A stretch of 15,691 nucleotides of DNA from the NCBI GenBank assembly GCA_022566355.1, contig JADFJB010000110.1, forward strand, positions 1 to 15,691. The letters are read 5' to 3'. The DNA comes from a candidate division KSB1 bacterium. Lineage in GTDB: Bacteria > Zhuqueibacterota > JdFR-76 > DREG01. The position numbers and the translations under genes are program-made. The notes under the pieces are model-generated. The model was not told where the DNA came from, searched no databases, and saw only the letters and a program-made list of their open reading frames with translations. Positions 4,053 through 15,691 of the stretch are shown here, in pieces; the stretch's first letter is position 1; each line of letters opens with the position of its first letter.

Positions 4053-4188
4053 GTTTGTTCTCCAATTAGTTAAAGTCTTTTTTATCGGTTAAATCCCGCC
4101 GGTATTGCGACAAAGTTTGATAGATTCTCACGTTCTTCATTGCTCCTGCAATATATTTAATCTAAATTAAGTTGAATCAATAAGAAGT

Positions 4189-4244
4189 TAAAAAGTAAAA
4201 AGTAAAAAGTAAAAAGTAAAAGGTAAAAGGTAAAAGGTAAAAGG
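4189..4244. repeat. Eight-unit heptamer tandem array
   Basis: Eight perfect seven-base units in a row: four of TAAAAAG (4189-4216) followed by four of TAAAAGG (4217-4244), then TAAATA. The two halves differ by one base at position six of the unit, with no mixing. Such an array is prone to slippage. It lies about 140 bases upstream of the DUF885 start codon. Confidence 0.95.
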
Positions 4245-4397
4245 TAAATAGATGATTCGAAAAAACAAAGGAAAATCAAATAATATTAAACCCGTAATCC
4301 AAATAACTTTCCTTCCGGCGCATCATCAGACAATTTGACCACTTAATTCCACATCGTCAATAGAGAGTTTACAGAGGATTAGGCGGTCTGTTTCTAG

Positions 4398-9054: not shown

Positions 9055-10203
9055 TTACAATATCATTTTATTAAACACACTTTTTGCAGCCAGTTTCGTG
9101 AGTATTAAATTTCCGGATCCAAATGAAATGAGTTTATTCGTAACCCCTGAATTTCTTAAGATGGGTGAAAATACATGATTGACCCAAAATCGATTTATTT
9201 TGGAAAATTCCAAGGTATCGGTTTTATTGCCAAAATGTTCCAAAATCCTCTTTGCAGCAATCACTCCGTCTTGAAGAGCGAAGTAAATTCCTTGCCCTGT
9301 AAACGGCTCCACAGTTTTTCTTGCATCTCCAATTAAACAGCTAAACTGAAATTCAGTTTGACGTTGTCTTGGATTAATTGGAAATGCCGTAAGCGAATTC
9401 TCAAATTTAGAGACTTCCCCAAAAATTTGATTGAATGGATTATTGGATTTAATTGTTTTTGACAGGAATTTTAATGGATTCTTAGAAACAAGCCTTGCAA
9501 TTCCCGGAGTTGTTACCATCGCAAGGTTTATTAAATTTTGGCCTAATCCTACTATGCCAAAATATCCTAAATCATAAAAAAATAAATCAACACAATTATT
9601 TTCGAACCCACGACTGTTCAATAACCATTGAATGCCAACACGATCTAAGCTTTTGCCATTATTGAACGATTTATTCTTTTGAGATTGCTTGCTTAGTTTT
9701 CTTGCTACAAAAGAATTTCTGCCGTCGGCGCCGACTAATATTTTGGCATTAACTTTTTTATTATTCTTATTTTTTATCCCGGAAATAAAAATATTCCACT
9801 TTCTGTCGTAAATCAGATCCACTACTCGAGTTTCATCCAGGACAATCACACCCAATTTTTTCGCATGATTTAGCAAAATATCATCCAATTCACTCCTGCA
9901 CATTGCAAAAAAGGGTGTGATATTTTTTTTAAGATGAACTTGCACAATTTCGCCATTCTTGTTATGAACACGAATCCATTCTATGAAATTTGGAGTTCGG
10001 GCTTTGATCTCATCACTAATCCCCAGCAAATCGAAAATGTGCCAGGCTGCCGGATTAATACAATCTCCGCAAATTTTTTGTCGAGGAAATTTCGCTTTGT
10101 CAATGAGTAAAACTTCTAAACCGGCTTTGCTTAATAACGCAGCACAAGTTGAACCGGCGGGTCCGCCACCTACCACTATGACATGAAATTCATTGGATTG
10201 CAT
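9055..10203 (-). CDS. FAD-dependent oxidoreductase, geranylgeranyl reductase family
   Basis: A 382-residue flavoprotein. The N-terminal dinucleotide fold has VVGGGPAGSTCA (10-21) and the ribose-binding acid D35 in LLIDKAKFPRQKICGDC, whose CGDC block is typical of geranylgeranyl-reductase-like enzymes (TIGR02032). A second FAD motif is LVGADGRNS (156-164), and the third is IGDARKTVEPFTGQGI (291-306). The family reduces isoprenoid or other conjugated double bonds, or hydroxylates aromatic rings, with FAD. The ATG at 10203 overlaps the ketosynthase stop by one base (TAATG), which means translational coupling. Codon use is AT-rich like its neighbours. In this context it probably reduces or oxidises the product of the ketosynthase; that is inference. 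A halogenase is less likely, as no W-x-W-x-I motif is seen. Confidence 0.88.
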   Translation of the reverse strand: MQSNEFHVIVVGGGPAGSTCAALLSKAGLEVLLIDKAKFPRQKICGDCINPAAWHIFDLLGISDEIKARTPNFIEWIRVHNKNGEIVQVHLKKNITPFFAMCRSELDDILLNHAKKLGVIVLDETRVVDLIYDRKWNIFISGIKNKNNKKVNAKILVGADGRNSFVARKLSKQSQKNKSFNNGKSLDRVGIQWLLNSRGFENNCVDLFFYDLGYFGIVGLGQNLINLAMVTTPGIARLVSKNPLKFLSKTIKSNNPFNQIFGEVSKFENSLTAFPINPRQRQTEFQFSCLIGDARKTVEPFTGQGIYFALQDGVIAAKRILEHFGNKTDTLEFSKINRFWVNHVFSPILRNSGVTNKLISFGSGNLILTKLAAKSVFNKMIL

Positions 10204-11447
10204 TATTGAATGTAGCGACCAAAAACCAATGCAGAATTAATTCCGCCAAATCCGAAAGAATTGGTCAAGATATAATCTACCGTGGCTTCTCGCCCTCTAT
10301 TTGCAACATAATCCAGATCACAATCATGGTCAATATTTTCAAGGTGGATCGTTGGAGGGATAAAGTTGTGGGTAAAGATCATTGCGCTAATGGCTGCTTC
10401 GATAGCGCCGGCCGCACCCAATGAATGGGTGTGCATCGATTTTGTAGCGCTGATTGGAATTTTGTAAGCCCTGTCGCCAAAAACCTGTTTTATTGCATAA
10501 GTTTCGGTTTTGTCATTCAAAGCAGTGGAACTGCCATGAGCATTGATATAGCCCACGGAGTCGATGTTTATATTTGCTTCCTGCAATGAATTCTTCATGG
10601 CCTTTATTGCACACAGACCGTCGGGTCTTGGAGCTACCATATGATAGCCGTCATTATTACAGGAAAAGCCAAGCACTTCGCAATAAATGTTTGCCCCTCG
10701 TTTAACAGCATTCGATAATTCTTCCAACACAAGAACTGCAGCCCCCTCACCCATTACAAAGCCATCACGGTTTTTATCAAATGGCCTGGAAGCTGAATCG
10801 GGATCAGGGTTGGTAGACATCGCACGAATGATAGAAAAGGCGCTAAAACTTAATTCAAACAACGGCGCTTCCGCTCCGCCTGTTATCATTGCATCGGCAT
10901 AGCCGTCACGAATATACCGAAATCCTTCCCCAATTCCAATTGTTCCAGATGAACAGCTGTTTGAATTTGCATTGCTTGGACCGGTGAATCCATACTGTAT
11001 TGCAATATTACTTGATCCTGCTCCACCAAAAACCGTAAGAGCCAAACTCGGATCTACCGCGCGAATGCCTTTTTCTAAAAATGCCTTATGCTGCTTTTCT
11101 GCACCGGCAACTCCTCCCAACGCTGTTCCCAAGGTTACACCAACCCGTGAATTGGGCTGCTTTTGATCATAAACCAATTTAGCATCCTCGACTGCCATAT
11201 TGCCGGCTGCCAGGGCAAATTGGGAAAATCTATCCATTCGCTTCACTAATTTTTTATCAAAAAAATCTAAAGGATTAAAGTCAATAATTTCACCTGCCAC
11301 TTTATTGCGGATTTGCGAAGTATCAAATCTTGAAATAACCCGTGCGCCCGATACTCCTTCACTAGCGCCTTTCCACAAGCCATCCTTGCCATGACCTATT
11401 GGAGTAATAGCGCCGATGCCTGTTATAACGACTCGTCTACGATCCAT
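10203..11447 (-). CDS. Beta-ketoacyl-ACP synthase, FabF-like (KAS II type)
   Basis: A 414-residue thiolase-fold condensing enzyme with a complete active site: C165 in NSNSCSSGT, H304 in NAHGSSTALND, K336 and H341 in KSMHTHSLGAAGA. These lie within two residues of the E. coli FabF sites (163, 303, 335, 340). The C-terminus has NSFGFGGINSALVF. It catalyses decarboxylative condensation of malonyl-ACP with an acyl chain. The open frame extends to a TTG at 11459, but ATG at 11447 is preferred because MDRRRVVITGIG is the normal family start. It overlaps the upstream cyclase-like gene by 11 bases and the downstream reductase by one. The cassette context suggests secondary metabolism rather than housekeeping fatty acid synthesis. 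The active-site Cys rules out a chain-length-factor-type partner. Confidence 0.92.
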   Translation of the reverse strand: MDRRRVVITGIGAITPIGHGKDGLWKGASEGVSGARVISRFDTSQIRNKVAGEIIDFNPLDFFDKKLVKRMDRFSQFALAAGNMAVEDAKLVYDQKQPNSRVGVTLGTALGGVAGAEKQHKAFLEKGIRAVDPSLALTVFGGAGSSNIAIQYGFTGPSNANSNSCSSGTIGIGEGFRYIRDGYADAMITGGAEAPLFELSFSAFSIIRAMSTNPDPDSASRPFDKNRDGFVMGEGAAVLVLEELSNAVKRGANIYCEVLGFSCNNDGYHMVAPRPDGLCAIKAMKNSLQEANINIDSVGYINAHGSSTALNDKTETYAIKQVFGDRAYKIPISATKSMHTHSLGAAGAIEAAISAMIFTHNFIPPTIHLENIDHDCDLDYVANRGREATVDYILTNSFGFGGINSALVFGRYIQ

Positions 11448-11886
11448 ATTTTTGCTCAATATATTGTTTCATATGGATGAGTGTTTGATTTGCCACATAA
11501 TGGATGAAGAACTTTCCAACAATTTGTTCTGCAATGAATTTTCCGATAATTGGAATTTTAGATTTCAGGTCATGCACAATGCGAACATCTACCCCGCTGT
11601 CTAATTGCGTAAATGTCCAAACTACATCCATACCTTTGGTAAACGCCTTTAAATGATGAAAATGAATTTCCTTTTTATCTGGATTTATTGTAATATCCGA
11701 AGTCCATTTTATGGGAATCCAATTTCGTTTTGCAGCCATTTCAACCCTGAATTTAGTTGACTTCTTTTCTAAAAAATTGACATATCGGTAATGTGGTAAA
11801 ATTTTAGGCCAGAGCGACAAATCAGCGGCAGTTTCGAAAATATTATCTAAAGCTGAATAGATTATAATACTACTTTCGCTATGCAT
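11437..11886 (-). CDS. SRPBCC (START-like) polyketide cyclase/COQ10-type protein
   Basis: A 149-residue protein with the START/SRPBCC pattern: an N-terminal strand (ESSIIIYSALDNIFETAADL, about 4-23), then LWPKILPHYRYVNFLEKK with the W-P-x-x-LPHY block of the cyclase/dehydrase and coenzyme Q-binding groups, alternating strands, and a long amphipathic C-terminal helix (about 115-145). Such proteins bind hydrophobic ligands in a central cavity; some act as polyketide aromatases or cyclases. The ATG at 11886 lies two bases after the methyltransferase stop, and its GGAGAA ribosome site is inside the end of that gene, so the two are coupled. Position directly before a ketosynthase favours a cyclase or product-binding role, but no catalytic residue can be assigned. 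Confidence 0.8.
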   Translation of the reverse strand: MHSESSIIIYSALDNIFETAADLSLWPKILPHYRYVNFLEKKSTKFRVEMAAKRNWIPIKWTSDITINPDKKEIHFHHLKAFTKGMDVVWTFTQLDSGVDVRIVHDLKSKIPIIGKFIAEQIVGKFFIHYVANQTLIHMKQYIEQKYGS

Positions 11887-11888
11887 AC

Positions 11889-12605
11889 CTATTCTCCAAT
11901 TAATAGTAGGCGAAAGAACGGCCGTTTTTTAATAGTAATCTTTTCAATACCCGCTTTAACCGCCATTTTGCCCAGTTCAGATTTTGTAAATCCGCGCAAG
12001 ACCGAAAGATAGGAATCGTGAAGAGTCATGGGATTTCGTGTTGTTGCATGCGTGTAAAGCCATGTAGTCCAGGCGCCAGGCCAGGTTCGATTTAAATCGT
12101 TAACAATTAAAGCAACCCTGCTTATTAAATTCATATGATTCAATATGATAATAACTTCATCTTCTGTAAAATGATGAATGGCAAGTGAACAAATCACGAT
12201 GTCAAAACTGTCTGATCCGTAAGGAAGCTTTAAAATATCGTGTTCTTCAATATGGATTTCCGGAAAATCTTTGGTTTGCTGTCTGGCTACTTCAAGAATA
12301 TCAGGATTCTTATCAACTGCTACAATTTTAAAATTTAGCTCTTTTTCATATAGAAAATTAGCAATCGCAACCGGATGGTCTGCAGATCCTGTTGCCAAAT
12401 CGAGAATACTGATCTCTTCATGTTTATCCATTCTCAACAATAATTTTTTGATCTCCGACAGTACTGCCGCTAAGCCGCCAAACAATCGATTGATCACCTG
12501 CAGATTTTTCAAATCATCGCGTAAGATAAGGGGGTCATTGTTCTGATTATCGATCATTTCCGGAACCGATGGATCAAAATGACGATGCGGGATAAAGATA
12601 TTCAT
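11889..12605 (-). CDS. Class I SAM-dependent methyltransferase
   Basis: A 238-residue Rossmann-fold methyltransferase. Motif I is ILDLATGSADHP (67-78), the acidic residue ending strand 2 is D98 in VAVDKNP, and motif IV is FDIVICSLAIHHF (134-146). An N-terminal PEMIDNQNNDPLILRDDL region and a C-terminal LSVLRGFTKSEL block resemble methyltransferases often found next to type III PKS and flavoreductase genes, in my recollection. The acceptor could be an oxygen or carbon of the cassette product. The frame stays open to 12719, but that extension is encoded by tandem repeats (it repeats IMSVQVCG twice), so the ATG at 12605 is chosen, although no ribosome site is evident there. It is the first gene of the minus-strand cassette. 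Confidence 0.8.
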   Translation of the reverse strand: MNIFIPHRHFDPSVPEMIDNQNNDPLILRDDLKNLQVINRLFGGLAAVLSEIKKLLLRMDKHEEISILDLATGSADHPVAIANFLYEKELNFKIVAVDKNPDILEVARQQTKDFPEIHIEEHDILKLPYGSDSFDIVICSLAIHHFTEDEVIIILNHMNLISRVALIVNDLNRTWPGAWTTWLYTHATTRNPMTLHDSYLSVLRGFTKSELGKMAVKAGIEKITIKKRPFFRLLLIGE

Positions 12606-12644
12606 AAGCCGATAATTTTTTAGTTGACAAAATAAGGACTTATA

Positions 12645-12796
12645 GCCACAGACTTGCACAGACATAATGCCACAGACTTGCACAGACATAATGCTACTGA
12701 CTTTCACAGACAAAAGCAAGCCACTGACTTACACTGACAAAAGCAAGAGGAAATACTAAAAAATCTGCTTTAACTAGTCTGTGGCTGTCTGTGGCT
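12645..12796. repeat. Degenerate tandem and inverted AGTCTGTGGC-family repeat
   Basis: Two identical 24-base units (12646-12669 and 12670-12693) containing CCACAGACTTGCACAGACAT are followed by two related 27-base units (12694-12720, 12721-12747) that share ACAAAAGCAAG ends. Inverted copies lie at 12776-12785 (AGTCTGTGGC) and 12787-12796 (GTCTGTGGCT). GCCACAGACT at 12645-12654 is the exact complement of 12776-12785, so the block could fold as one large stem-loop. It lies between the divergent methyltransferase and sigma-factor genes, where both promoters should be. Confidence 0.9.
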
Positions 12797-12900
12797 CCTA
12801 TCCTTTTTATTTTTTATGTATCTTTACTAATAAAACCACCTATTTTGTTGAATAAGTTAAAGGTTTTTTCAAATACGAATAATAGGATAACCATTCACAT

Positions 12901-13521
12901 TTGCAAAGCGATTCATCGTTAAGGAACCCAAACGAAAAATCAAATAAGGAACTTCCCGATGAAGTTCTTGTTGTGGCAGCGATTCTTGGCGATTTTGAAG
13001 CCTTTAATGAGCTGGTGCTGCGTTATCGGACTGCAGTCGTTCGCTTTGCACAGTCAATTGTTGGGTTCACGGATGCCGAAGATGTTGCACAGGATACTTT
13101 ACTACTCGCATTCAAGGCTTTGCCTTCTATCGAAAACCCCGATAAATTTGCGGCATGGCTTATGACTATTGCCCGTAACCGTGCTTTAAGATTCATCAAA
13201 CGGAAGAAGGACAAATCAGCCAAACATGTGGAATTTGATGAAATGCTGCTTGAACACATAAGTGAACTGAACCAGCCACTGATTGACAGGAAAGACAGCA
13301 ATGAGGAAATAATGATGGCCTTAGCAAAGCTACCCGAAGAATATGCAATGGTAATGCGAATGCGGTATTTCGACGAGATGCCTCTAAAAAGAATGACGGC
13401 TTTCCTTAACGTACCCATGCATACGATAAAATGGCGAATATTTCGCGGCAAACAGTTGCTGCGCGATCAAATTAATTTATTAAGAGAAGGAGAAAAGAAA
13501 TGGATAGAGAAAAAGAACTGA
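12901..13521 (+). CDS. ECF-type RNA polymerase sigma factor
   Basis: A 206-residue sigma-70 family protein with only regions 2 and 4. Region 2 runs from about 19 to 100, with GDFEAFNELVLRY (30-42) and the conserved DAEDVAQDTLLLAFKAL (58-74). Region 4 (about 141-189) starts LAKLPEEYAMVMRMRYFDEM and has a helix-turn-helix ending TIKWRIFRGKQLL. ECF factors direct RNA polymerase to stress or envelope-response promoters and are normally held by an anti-sigma factor encoded next door. The first codon appears to be TTG at 12901, with a weak AGGA upstream and an in-frame stop at 12883-12885; the domain starts later, so a shorter product is possible. The last 22 bases overlap the next gene. Confidence 0.9.
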   Translation: MQSDSSLRNPNEKSNKELPDEVLVVAAILGDFEAFNELVLRYRTAVVRFAQSIVGFTDAEDVAQDTLLLAFKALPSIENPDKFAAWLMTIARNRALRFIKRKKDKSAKHVEFDEMLLEHISELNQPLIDRKDSNEEIMMALAKLPEEYAMVMRMRYFDEMPLKRMTAFLNVPMHTIKWRIFRGKQLLRDQINLLREGEKKWIEKKN

Positions 13522-13991
13522 CCAAACTGGTCAACATGTTGCGACGAACCGCTCGAATGGCTTTAAATGTGGAGTGGACAGAAGACACTACGGATTCTGC
13601 ACAATATTGTGTGGCACAATACAACCGGGTCCTGGAACGTTTAAAGCAGCTTGACCCAAATGAAACGACTGTATTTGAACCGCTGGAATCAGGAAGTTCA
13701 TTAAATGTAGTGGCGATTGCCAGCCGGCAGTTGGCAGCTTATTACGAAGATGAAGTAACAGATTCCAATGCCTGGCAGACCTTTTGTGGTGGTGCAGCAA
13801 CCAGCGCAGATGCCTTCAAAGATTTCTGGCGTAAAGGGGCATCCGATGTTCAAGACTTGGGCGAAGCTATTCGGGAGAGTATCGAAACCTGGTCAAAACA
13901 ACGAAAGAGTAGAGACAGTGAATCTTCAACCGAGAACAAACCTGACGAAGAGAAGGATAAGAAAGCCGATCCGGATGTAGATAAATCCTAA
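13500..13991 (+). CDS. Unknown soluble protein coupled to the ECF sigma factor
   Basis: A 163-residue protein I do not recognise. The first about 130 residues look helical, with a central WQTFCGGAATSADAFKDFW segment (92-110). The tail (about 134-163) is highly charged and probably disordered, rich in K, D, E and S. It has no hydrophobic helix and only two cysteines (37 and 96), and lacks the H-x3-C-x2-C zinc motif of classical anti-sigma factors. AGGAGA (13488-13493) lies inside the sigma gene six bases before the ATG, and the genes overlap by 22 bases, so co-translation is near certain. From position it may be an anti-sigma factor or other regulator of the sigma factor; that is inference. 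Length and charge do not exclude a structural role. Confidence 0.8.
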   Translation: MDREKELTKLVNMLRRTARMALNVEWTEDTTDSAQYCVAQYNRVLERLKQLDPNETTVFEPLESGSSLNVVAIASRQLAAYYEDEVTDSNAWQTFCGGAATSADAFKDFWRKGASDVQDLGEAIRESIETWSKQRKSRDSESSTENKPDEEKDKKADPDVDKS

Positions 13992-14020: not shown

Positions 14021-14115
14021 AACCGCTAAAGCGGTTGAAATCTTTTGATAATCCTATTAGCACCTGGCTTAAGCCAGGTGTTAATAAATAATCTGTAATA
14101 ACCGTTGCAACGGTT
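14021..14115. repeat. Three-palindrome REP-like element
   Basis: The left palindrome is AACCGCT-AA-AGCGGTT (14021-14036), the centre is CACCTGGCTTAAGCCAGGTG (14061-14080, perfect over 20 bases) and the right is AACCGTTGCAACGGTT (14100-14115, perfect over 16). The outer two share AACCG...CGGTT and flank the centre almost symmetrically. Such sets resemble REP-type repeats mobilised by RAYT transposases; no transposase is present in the window. The first hairpin could also end the sigma-factor transcript. Confidence 0.8.
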
Positions 14116-14290
14116 TCAAGGCAATTTGCTATTTCATCAATTATTTTGTAAATGTTGTTCATCTTGTTAATCCTGTCTTAATTTTTTTTCGAATAAGTAC
14201 GCGTTACTATGAAAATCCTGAAATTTGATTTTAGAGTTTGCTTAGAAATTAGAAATTCGAAATTGCATCCACCTGCTTTTTGTTAGTGTA

Positions 14291-14354
14291 AGTCTGTGGC
14301 TTGTATTAGTCTGTTCCGGTCTGTGGCATTTTTTAGTCCTTGAAAGTCTGTGGC
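14291..14354. repeat. Second AGTCTGTGGC-family repeat cluster
   Basis: AGTCTGTGGC occurs at 14291-14300 and 14345-14354, GTCTGTGGCA at 14319-14328, with an AGTCTGTTCC variant between them. All read in the plus direction and match the inverted copies at 12776-12796 and the complement of the tandem units at 12646-12747. Confidence 0.85.
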
Positions 14355-14424
14355 TTTACCTGTCATTTTTCCCAATCCTACTTTTACCATAAAAAATATA
14401 ATTGATATTTGAAACACTAGAGAC

Positions 14425-14483: not shown

Positions 14484-15691
14484 ATGCCGCCGGATACAAC
14501 TGCAGTTTCTTCATTTTTAGCAAATCCCAACCCTTTAACAATTATTGCAACTATTGTTGGAATTATAGCCGGCTTGGTTGCGATTACAGTTGGATACATC
14601 ACAAAGATACATCCCTGGTTGCAAAACAAACGAGATCGCCGATCCTTAAAAAAGAGATTTGGCGCTGAGCTTTATCCAATTGGAGTCATTGAAAATTCAA
14701 CCCGTTATTATATTGAGCCTTTTTGCCAGAGCCTCGATCCGGCCGGCTCGGAAGAACCTCGACTTGTATATGGCGCAAAGCAGAATCTTTTCGATGCAAT
14801 AGATGACGCCTTAAACAACCCGACCGATTACCGCTACATATTCTTACTGGCTGATTCGGGAATGGGAAAATCAACTTTCTTGCTCAATTACTACGCGCGT
14901 AATTTAAGAAAACGCCGACGGAAATTCGAATTCCAACTCATCCCTTTGGGAATTCCCGACGCTGATAAGAGGATTGTGCGGGTTAAGAACAAAAAGGATA
15001 CTGTATTATTTCTCGATGCCCTGGATGAAGACACGCTCGCCATCGTCGATCATGTGGAACGGCTGAGAATTCTGCTCGACTTATCCAGAGAGTTTGCCAA
15101 AGTCCTGATCACCTGCAGAACCCAATTTTTCCCAAAGGAAGAAGAGATTCCTCAAGAAACCGGTATCGTTAAGTTTGGGCCACGGGAAGCTGGTGAAAAG
15201 GCTGAATTTGTTTTTCATAAACTCTATCTTTCGCCATTTACCAATGAACAAGTTCAAGCTTATTTAAAAAAGCGTTATCCGCTGAGGCAGTTAAAGCGCC
15301 GGGGTATCGCCCAGGAGATGGTGAAAAAAATTCCCAATCTCAGCATTCGGCCCATGCTGCTGGCACATATAGATGATTTGGTAACAACTGGACGAAATAT
15401 TAATTATGCTTTTGAACTATACGAAGAAATGGTCGAAGCCTGGTTAATACGAGAAGAAGGGATTGTTCCCGGCTTGAAAAAGGACCCTTTACGCAAATTT
15501 TCTGAGAGATTGGCAGTCGATTTGTACACCAAAAGGAAAGCACGCGGCGCTGAACGTATTGCCAAAGATAAACTCGCTATGCTGGCTAATAAATGGAACA
15601 TACCCCTGAATGACTGGCAACTCACCGGTCGTTCCCTGCTTAATCGCGACGCTGGTGGAAATTACAAGTTCGCCCACCGTTCTATCATGGA
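14484..15691 (+). CDS. Membrane-anchored NACHT-type NTPase, cut by the window end
   Basis: The first 402 residues of a longer protein, open to the last base. One hydrophobic helix (about 18-39) is followed by a basic stretch (KRDRRSLKK, 49-57), so the bulk should face the cytoplasm. The NTPase has Walker A ADSGMGKST (123-131), with Ala for the usual first Gly; Walker B TVLFLDALDED (173-183), whose LDALDE matches the NACHT form; and sensor-like VLITCRTQFFP (207-217). Helical-bundle blocks SIRPMLLAHIDDL (287-299) and YKFAHRSIM (394-402) are typical of NACHT proteins. AGGG lies seven bases before the ATG. Bacterial NACHT proteins (bNACHT) include antiphage proteins that sense through C-terminal repeats; here that part lies beyond the window, so the target and effector are unknown. 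A defence role is inferred. Confidence 0.85.
   Translation, partial: MPPDTTAVSSFLANPNPLTIIATIVGIIAGLVAITVGYITKIHPWLQNKRDRRSLKKRFGAELYPIGVIENSTRYYIEPFCQSLDPAGSEEPRLVYGAKQNLFDAIDDALNNPTDYRYIFLLADSGMGKSTFLLNYYARNLRKRRRKFEFQLIPLGIPDADKRIVRVKNKKDTVLFLDALDEDTLAIVDHVERLRILLDLSREFAKVLITCRTQFFPKEEEIPQETGIVKFGPREAGEKAEFVFHKLYLSPFTNEQVQAYLKKRYPLRQLKRRGIAQEMVKKIPNLSIRPMLLAHIDDLVTTGRNINYAFELYEEMVEAWLIREEGIVPGLKKDPLRKFSERLAVDLYTKRKARGAERIAKDKLAMLANKWNIPLNDWQLTGRSLLNRDAGGNYKFAHRSIM

Follow-up and report, generated by a model that had tools for sequence, protein, structure and literature searches.

A 15,691-nt stretch of DNA from a candidate division KSB1 bacterium, hereafter the window, carries an ECF sigma factor gene which is overlapped at its 3' end by the gene of a small soluble helical protein. 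This protein, here called the partner, belongs to a family that appears to be new and is very probably a dedicated regulator or cofactor of the adjoining sigma factor. The near-obligate pairing of the two genes, their junction, a conserved promoter, an asymmetry in the loss of the sigma gene and the predicted helix layout of the partner suggest that, on balance, it acts as an antagonist, that is, as an anti-sigma factor.

The sigma gene overlaps the gene of its partner

The features of the unit are collected in Table 1. An earlier note, made from the DNA sequence, had proposed an ECF sigma factor at this position, and the profile matches indicate that the sigma is an ordinary member of this type. 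Sigma70_r2 (PF04542, E 1.8e-14) and Sigma70_r4_2 (PF08281, E 9e-9) were both matched above cut-off, TIGR02937 (sigma70-ECF) gave a score of 74.8 bits for a cut-off of 42.9, and only regions 2 and 4 were present, region 3 giving no match in the protein. The 22-base overlap and the ribosome-binding site within the sigma gene, also described in that note, were both found, and we infer from the overlap that translation of the two genes is coupled. Since the partner is conserved at 39–55% identity among its homologues and junction overlaps of 22, 31 or 16 nt were seen again in other genomes, the arrangement is more than a chance one. The sigma and the partner of one locus (L044) share a single reading frame; a model of the product expected from TGA read-through had a pTM of 0.46 and displayed no readable interface.

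Table 1. Features of the sigma-partner unit (positions in the window)
Feature	Position	Strand	Basis or remark
CTATCCTTTT-N10-GTATCTTTA, a predicted autoregulated ECF promoter directed towards the sigma gene	12798..12826	+	Counterparts in orthologues; uniqueness in the genome
ECF (group IV) sigma factor, 206 aa, TTG start	12901..13521	+	Profile matches; clade with 20 partner-bearing sigmas, support 99/99
AAGGAG, ribosome-binding site of the partner, within the sigma gene	13487..13492	+	7 nt before the partner ATG
Sigma/partner overlap, 22 nt (sigma end and partner start)	13500..13521	+	Same 22-nt overlap in L041, L134, L137, L138, L139
Partner, soluble, all-helical, 163 aa, ATG start; family unmatched in the libraries searched; proposed anti-sigma factor	13500..13991	+	
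Three-helix N-terminal body, residues 2–97, conserved; part common to short tandem paralogues elsewhere	13503..13790	+	AlphaFold2 and alignments
Long fourth helix, residues 103–144, missing from short paralogues	13806..13931	+	AlphaFold2 and alignments
Charged tail, residues 136–163, low prediction confidence, unconserved	13905..13988	+	
Two hairpins 3' of the partner (14021–14036, 14055–14086), likely operon end	14021..14086	+	

The partner is a predicted helical protein of a family without recognized relatives

The partner had been described in the earlier note as a protein with no membrane helix, no H-x3-C-x2-C zinc motif, a helical body and a charged tail, and the first three of these features were borne out. 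Its best 19-residue mean hydropathy is 0.78, and this value reaches at most 1.48 across the family, for a membrane helix threshold of about 1.6. Neither H-x3-C-x2-C nor C-x2-C was found in the partner or its homologues (0 of 36 sequences examined in all). Four helices were predicted by AlphaFold2 (residues 2–27, 31–51, 68–97 and 103–144), with a pLDDT of about 90 or more over residues 1–80 and a low confidence at residues 95–101, between the three-helix body and the fourth helix. This last helix, which was predicted with moderate confidence, contains the conserved motifs F-K/R-x-F-W and D-x-G-E-x-I-R-E. The tail is real in the window, where 17 of the last 28 residues are charged, but its sequence varies freely among homologues and it is nearly missing in L041; it is therefore not a defining part of the protein.

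Sequence searches of Pfam (with 35 members of the family), NCBIfam and the PDB gave no match, and the family thus appears to be new. Weak matches to Pullulanase_Ins, CAP and YcaO in Pfam or NCBIfam were below cut-off and differed from member to member, and two matches to PHROG families without function, each obtained with a single member, were set aside. The anti-sigma families of Pfam and NCBIfam were not matched by any of the 35 members. A Foldseek search with the partner model returned nothing at an E value of 0.001 or better, and no anti-sigma chain was present among the matches listed.

The partner accompanies a single clade of sigma factors

Single-sequence searches with the partner recovered nothing from 58 relatives, genome contigs, viral contigs and plasmids, and a profile search of viral contigs was also empty. 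This early appearance of an orphan protein was due to the sensitivity of the searches and to the places searched. A search with the sigma led to eight orthologues at about 49–60% identity, seven of them from Acidobacteriota (Blastocatellia, Pyrinomonadaceae and others) and one from a Rhodothermales MAG, and a partner homologue followed the sigma directly in all eight. The partner as an orphan was ruled out, a homologue adjoining every close sigma orthologue. Partner profiles matched in 12 of 396 Acidobacteriota genomes, in 5 of 146 genomes from the class of the Rhodothermales MAG and in 2 of 82 from the phylum of the window; altogether, the partner was found in 25 genomes from these three groups.

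Homologues of the partner did not lie mostly apart from sigma factors. In 22 of the 25 genomes the gene immediately before the partner is an intact ECF sigma gene, a count that includes two incomplete contigs (in G065 the contig begins within the sigma gene, and in G064 the sigma gene and the first part of the partner gene lie at a contig end); the sigma is damaged in two further genomes and missing in one. In 14 loci the sigma gene and the first partner gene overlap (by 22 nt in six of them, by 31 nt in three and by 16 nt in two), and the two genes are 0–57 nt apart in loci without overlap. As for the exceptions, G629 has kept the promoter and 28 sigma codons ahead of an intact partner (L247, about 4140–4250), G556 has an internally deleted sigma next to an intact partner (L245, 3234–3512) and G262 (L140) has a partner with no sigma beside it. 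These losses may be natural or may result from assembly errors. The resulting asymmetry of 3:0 (sigma absent or damaged with an intact partner in three genomes, the reverse in none), which comes from few cases and draft assemblies, fits an antagonist, because the partner is kept without the sigma and never the reverse.

When a sigma profile was run against the 396 Acidobacteriota genomes, the 11 members of the clade stood out with E values of at most 3e-81, the next sigma being at 1e-30 or worse. Each of the 11 genomes with a clade sigma is among the 12 that bear the partner. Twenty-one partner-bearing sigmas were placed on one side of a single branch in a 72-row tree (support 99/99, stem of 1.1 changes per site), and the partner was absent beside the next-nearest sigmas, which are about 33% identical. 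Distances between sigmas and between partners were correlated (r 0.80, 0 of 5000 permutations), a correlation that common ancestry by itself would produce. The intact pairs extend over at least three phyla, and genes beyond the unit are mostly unrelated between loci. This patchy spread over phyla suggests horizontal transfer of the unit.

Behind the genes of the next-nearest ECF sigmas (L048, L049, L051–L054 and L057; Thermoleophilia and other Actinomycetota) lies that of a different soluble-looking protein of 72–89 aa, after which a likely mechanosensitive channel gene was observed in at least two loci. They form another candidate for an uncharacterized sigma-partner pair.

A predicted promoter motif, nearly unique within each genome, precedes the sigma gene

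Nearly all orthologous sigma genes are preceded by the pattern CTAAC-Y-TTTT-N10-12-GTCTCTATA. The strict form of this pattern was matched only once in the entire 4.6-Mb genome of the window, at the promoter listed in Table 1, and the reversed pattern not at all. When 40 genomes were analyzed, strict matches were obtained in 17, all of them partner genomes, 16 of which have exactly one match, before the sigma gene; the remaining one, G075, has two, the extra one lying before an ABC exporter gene. Of the genomes analyzed, 17 lack the sigma, namely G262, 14 Acidobacteriota listing no partner and two near relatives; none of these had a strict match, and the reversed pattern had no match in any of the 40 genomes. 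A looser sequence model, with 150 candidates scored per genome, revealed no other confident site except the one before the G075 exporter gene. The window site, itself one of the 16 that make up a scoring matrix, scored 28.9 bits with this matrix, against 17.7 bits for the next site in the window and 400 kb of its genome. From this conservation, the sigma probably reads its own promoter and the unit is probably autoregulated. The unit also looks self-contained, since the promoter is nearly unique in each genome and the downstream genes are mostly unshared.

The second perfect match in G075 (L171, 1501–1531) makes the ABC exporter gene, which encodes a permease-ATPase fusion, a candidate member of the regulon. 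An ABC transporter ATPase gene was also noticed 3' of the partner gene in L043 and L044.

Genomic surroundings in the window

Degenerate repeats of the form GCCACAGACTT-G/A-CAC-A/T-GACA, in opposite orientation, were found at 12644–12796 and 14275–14358, where they bracket the promoter, the sigma gene and the partner gene. The repeat arms are of 53 nt and 79% complementary, and a 400-kb sample of the remaining genome sequence contained no match to the 19-nt motif. These repeats may mark the ends of a mobile cassette. Upstream, genes for beta-ketoacyl synthase-like, polyketide-cyclase-like and methyltransferase-like proteins lie in a row on the reverse strand (10203–12719), possibly a small biosynthetic cluster. 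On the other side, a NACHT-like NTPase gene with an N-terminal hydrophobic stretch (14484–15689) starts about 490 nt beyond the partner gene and is cut off by the end of the window.

Proposed mechanism and alternative explanations

In the mechanism that we favor, the sigma would direct transcription of its own operon from the conserved promoter, and the gene overlap would tie translation of the partner to translation of the sigma, giving the two proteins in a fixed ratio. The partner, with its three-helix body and separate long fourth helix, would bind the sigma and withhold it from RNA polymerase, and release would follow a cytoplasmic signal. Since the sigma would activate its own promoter, a brake would be needed, for which a coupled soluble partner is a natural candidate.

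A different, unlikely, possibility is that the partner is a positive cofactor, either needed for sigma activity or strengthening it, for instance as a stabilizer or as a co-sigma factor of the type represented by SigO-RsoA of Bacillus subtilis. Near-obligate pairing and coupled translation would be equally expected from such a cofactor. However, the sigma is already complete in regions 2 and 4, with no obvious missing part, and the retention of the partner in the three genomes where the sigma is absent or damaged fits an antagonist better. We give less credit still to a signal relay, in which the partner would act together with another regulator and a short paralogue would compete with the long copy, as in partner switching. 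In 11 loci (L040, L041, L042, L046, L134, L135 and L147–L151) such a paralogue, of 81–119 aa and reduced to the three-helix body, with no fourth helix, separates the sigma gene from the long partner gene, and its tail contains Arg and Cys in several Acidobacteriota. Against the relay, the long copy is the only one in the window and in roughly half of the other loci, and no kinase or response regulator was recognized by eye beside the unit.

It is very improbable that the partner is a passenger of the operon with no functional tie to the sigma. G262 does carry the partner without the sigma, which indicates that it can persist alone, but 22 intact pairs over several phyla, amid mostly unrelated neighbors, speak against a passenger. 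Least probable of all is a proteasome adaptor that would target the sigma for degradation in the manner of Mycobacterium tuberculosis Bpa: this protein gave the best structural alignment among the matches listed (Z 10.8–11.3 over residues 1–100, with 97 residues at Z 11.3 and an rmsd of about 3) and has a helix-bundle topology similar to that predicted for the partner over this part, but Z values below about 13 are common between helical bundles, none of 35 family members matches the Bpa family in Pfam, no sequence relation was found, and just one Proteasome-family (PF00227) gene is present in nearly all of 24 genomes searched, as would be expected of HslV. E. coli has one gene of this family, HslV, and a 20S core needs two; the partner genomes would seem to be without a two-subunit 20S proteasome.

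Relation to known regulators of ECF sigma factors

Class I (ASDI) anti-sigma factors, in which three helices are followed by a separate fourth one, are encoded directly after their sigma, and their soluble members are cytoplasmic (PMC7406223, PMC8999054). Like the soluble members ChrR, RsrA and RshA, the partner is small, helical and encoded directly after the sigma, and its predicted layout of three plus one helices resembles, in broad outline, the anti-sigma domain as described (PMC7406223). It differs from the class in the absence of a sequence match and of the zinc motif, and in its longer helices (21–42 residues). In class I factors a flexible linker leads from the three-helix bundle to the fourth helix, helix 1 contacts sigma4 and helix 4 contacts sigma2. 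Soluble regulators of ECF sigmas are known among ZAS proteins, partner-switching systems, CfrX and Asp23-like proteins; those outside the ZAS type include SigX-CfrX in ECF102 and the Asp23-like proteins of ECF286 and ECF292 (PMC8999054). The window unit has in common with these three groups an ECF sigma adjoining a small soluble protein proposed as its controller, but the partner falls into no Pfam or NCBIfam family, so that it is not recognizably one of theirs. Anti-sigma factors of classes II and III (CnrY and RsbN, respectively) are small helical proteins with two or three wrapping helices (PMC7406223); the partner is also small and helical, but it has no Pfam or PDB match and is predicted to form a bundle and a long helix instead. 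Systems that pair an ECF sigma with a soluble regulator encoded beside it are already known, and to these the partner would add a protein family that appears new; the sigma clade may already have an ECF group number.

The earlier note had suggested a new kind of soluble sigma regulator. The pairing, with an intact sigma in 22 of 25 genomes, and the unmatched family support this suggestion in part; the regulatory role itself is read from these patterns, and none of the matches listed was to an anti-sigma factor. Taken together, our results lead us to propose, tentatively, that the partner may be a zinc-free, soluble, helical-bundle anti-sigma factor of ECF sigmas, of a further structural class, which would form with its sigma a self-contained, autoregulated and horizontally spreading unit, and which the short copy would tune in some lineages.

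ECF sigma factors are among the commonest signal-transduction systems of bacteria, and many of their groups have no recognized regulator. If the proposal is true, a new family of soluble regulators, associated with a defined and highly specific promoter, would be added as a regulatory class, and hypothetical proteins in Acidobacteriota and their relatives would gain a name. It would also provide an orthogonal set of sigma, regulator and promoter, testable in E. coli.
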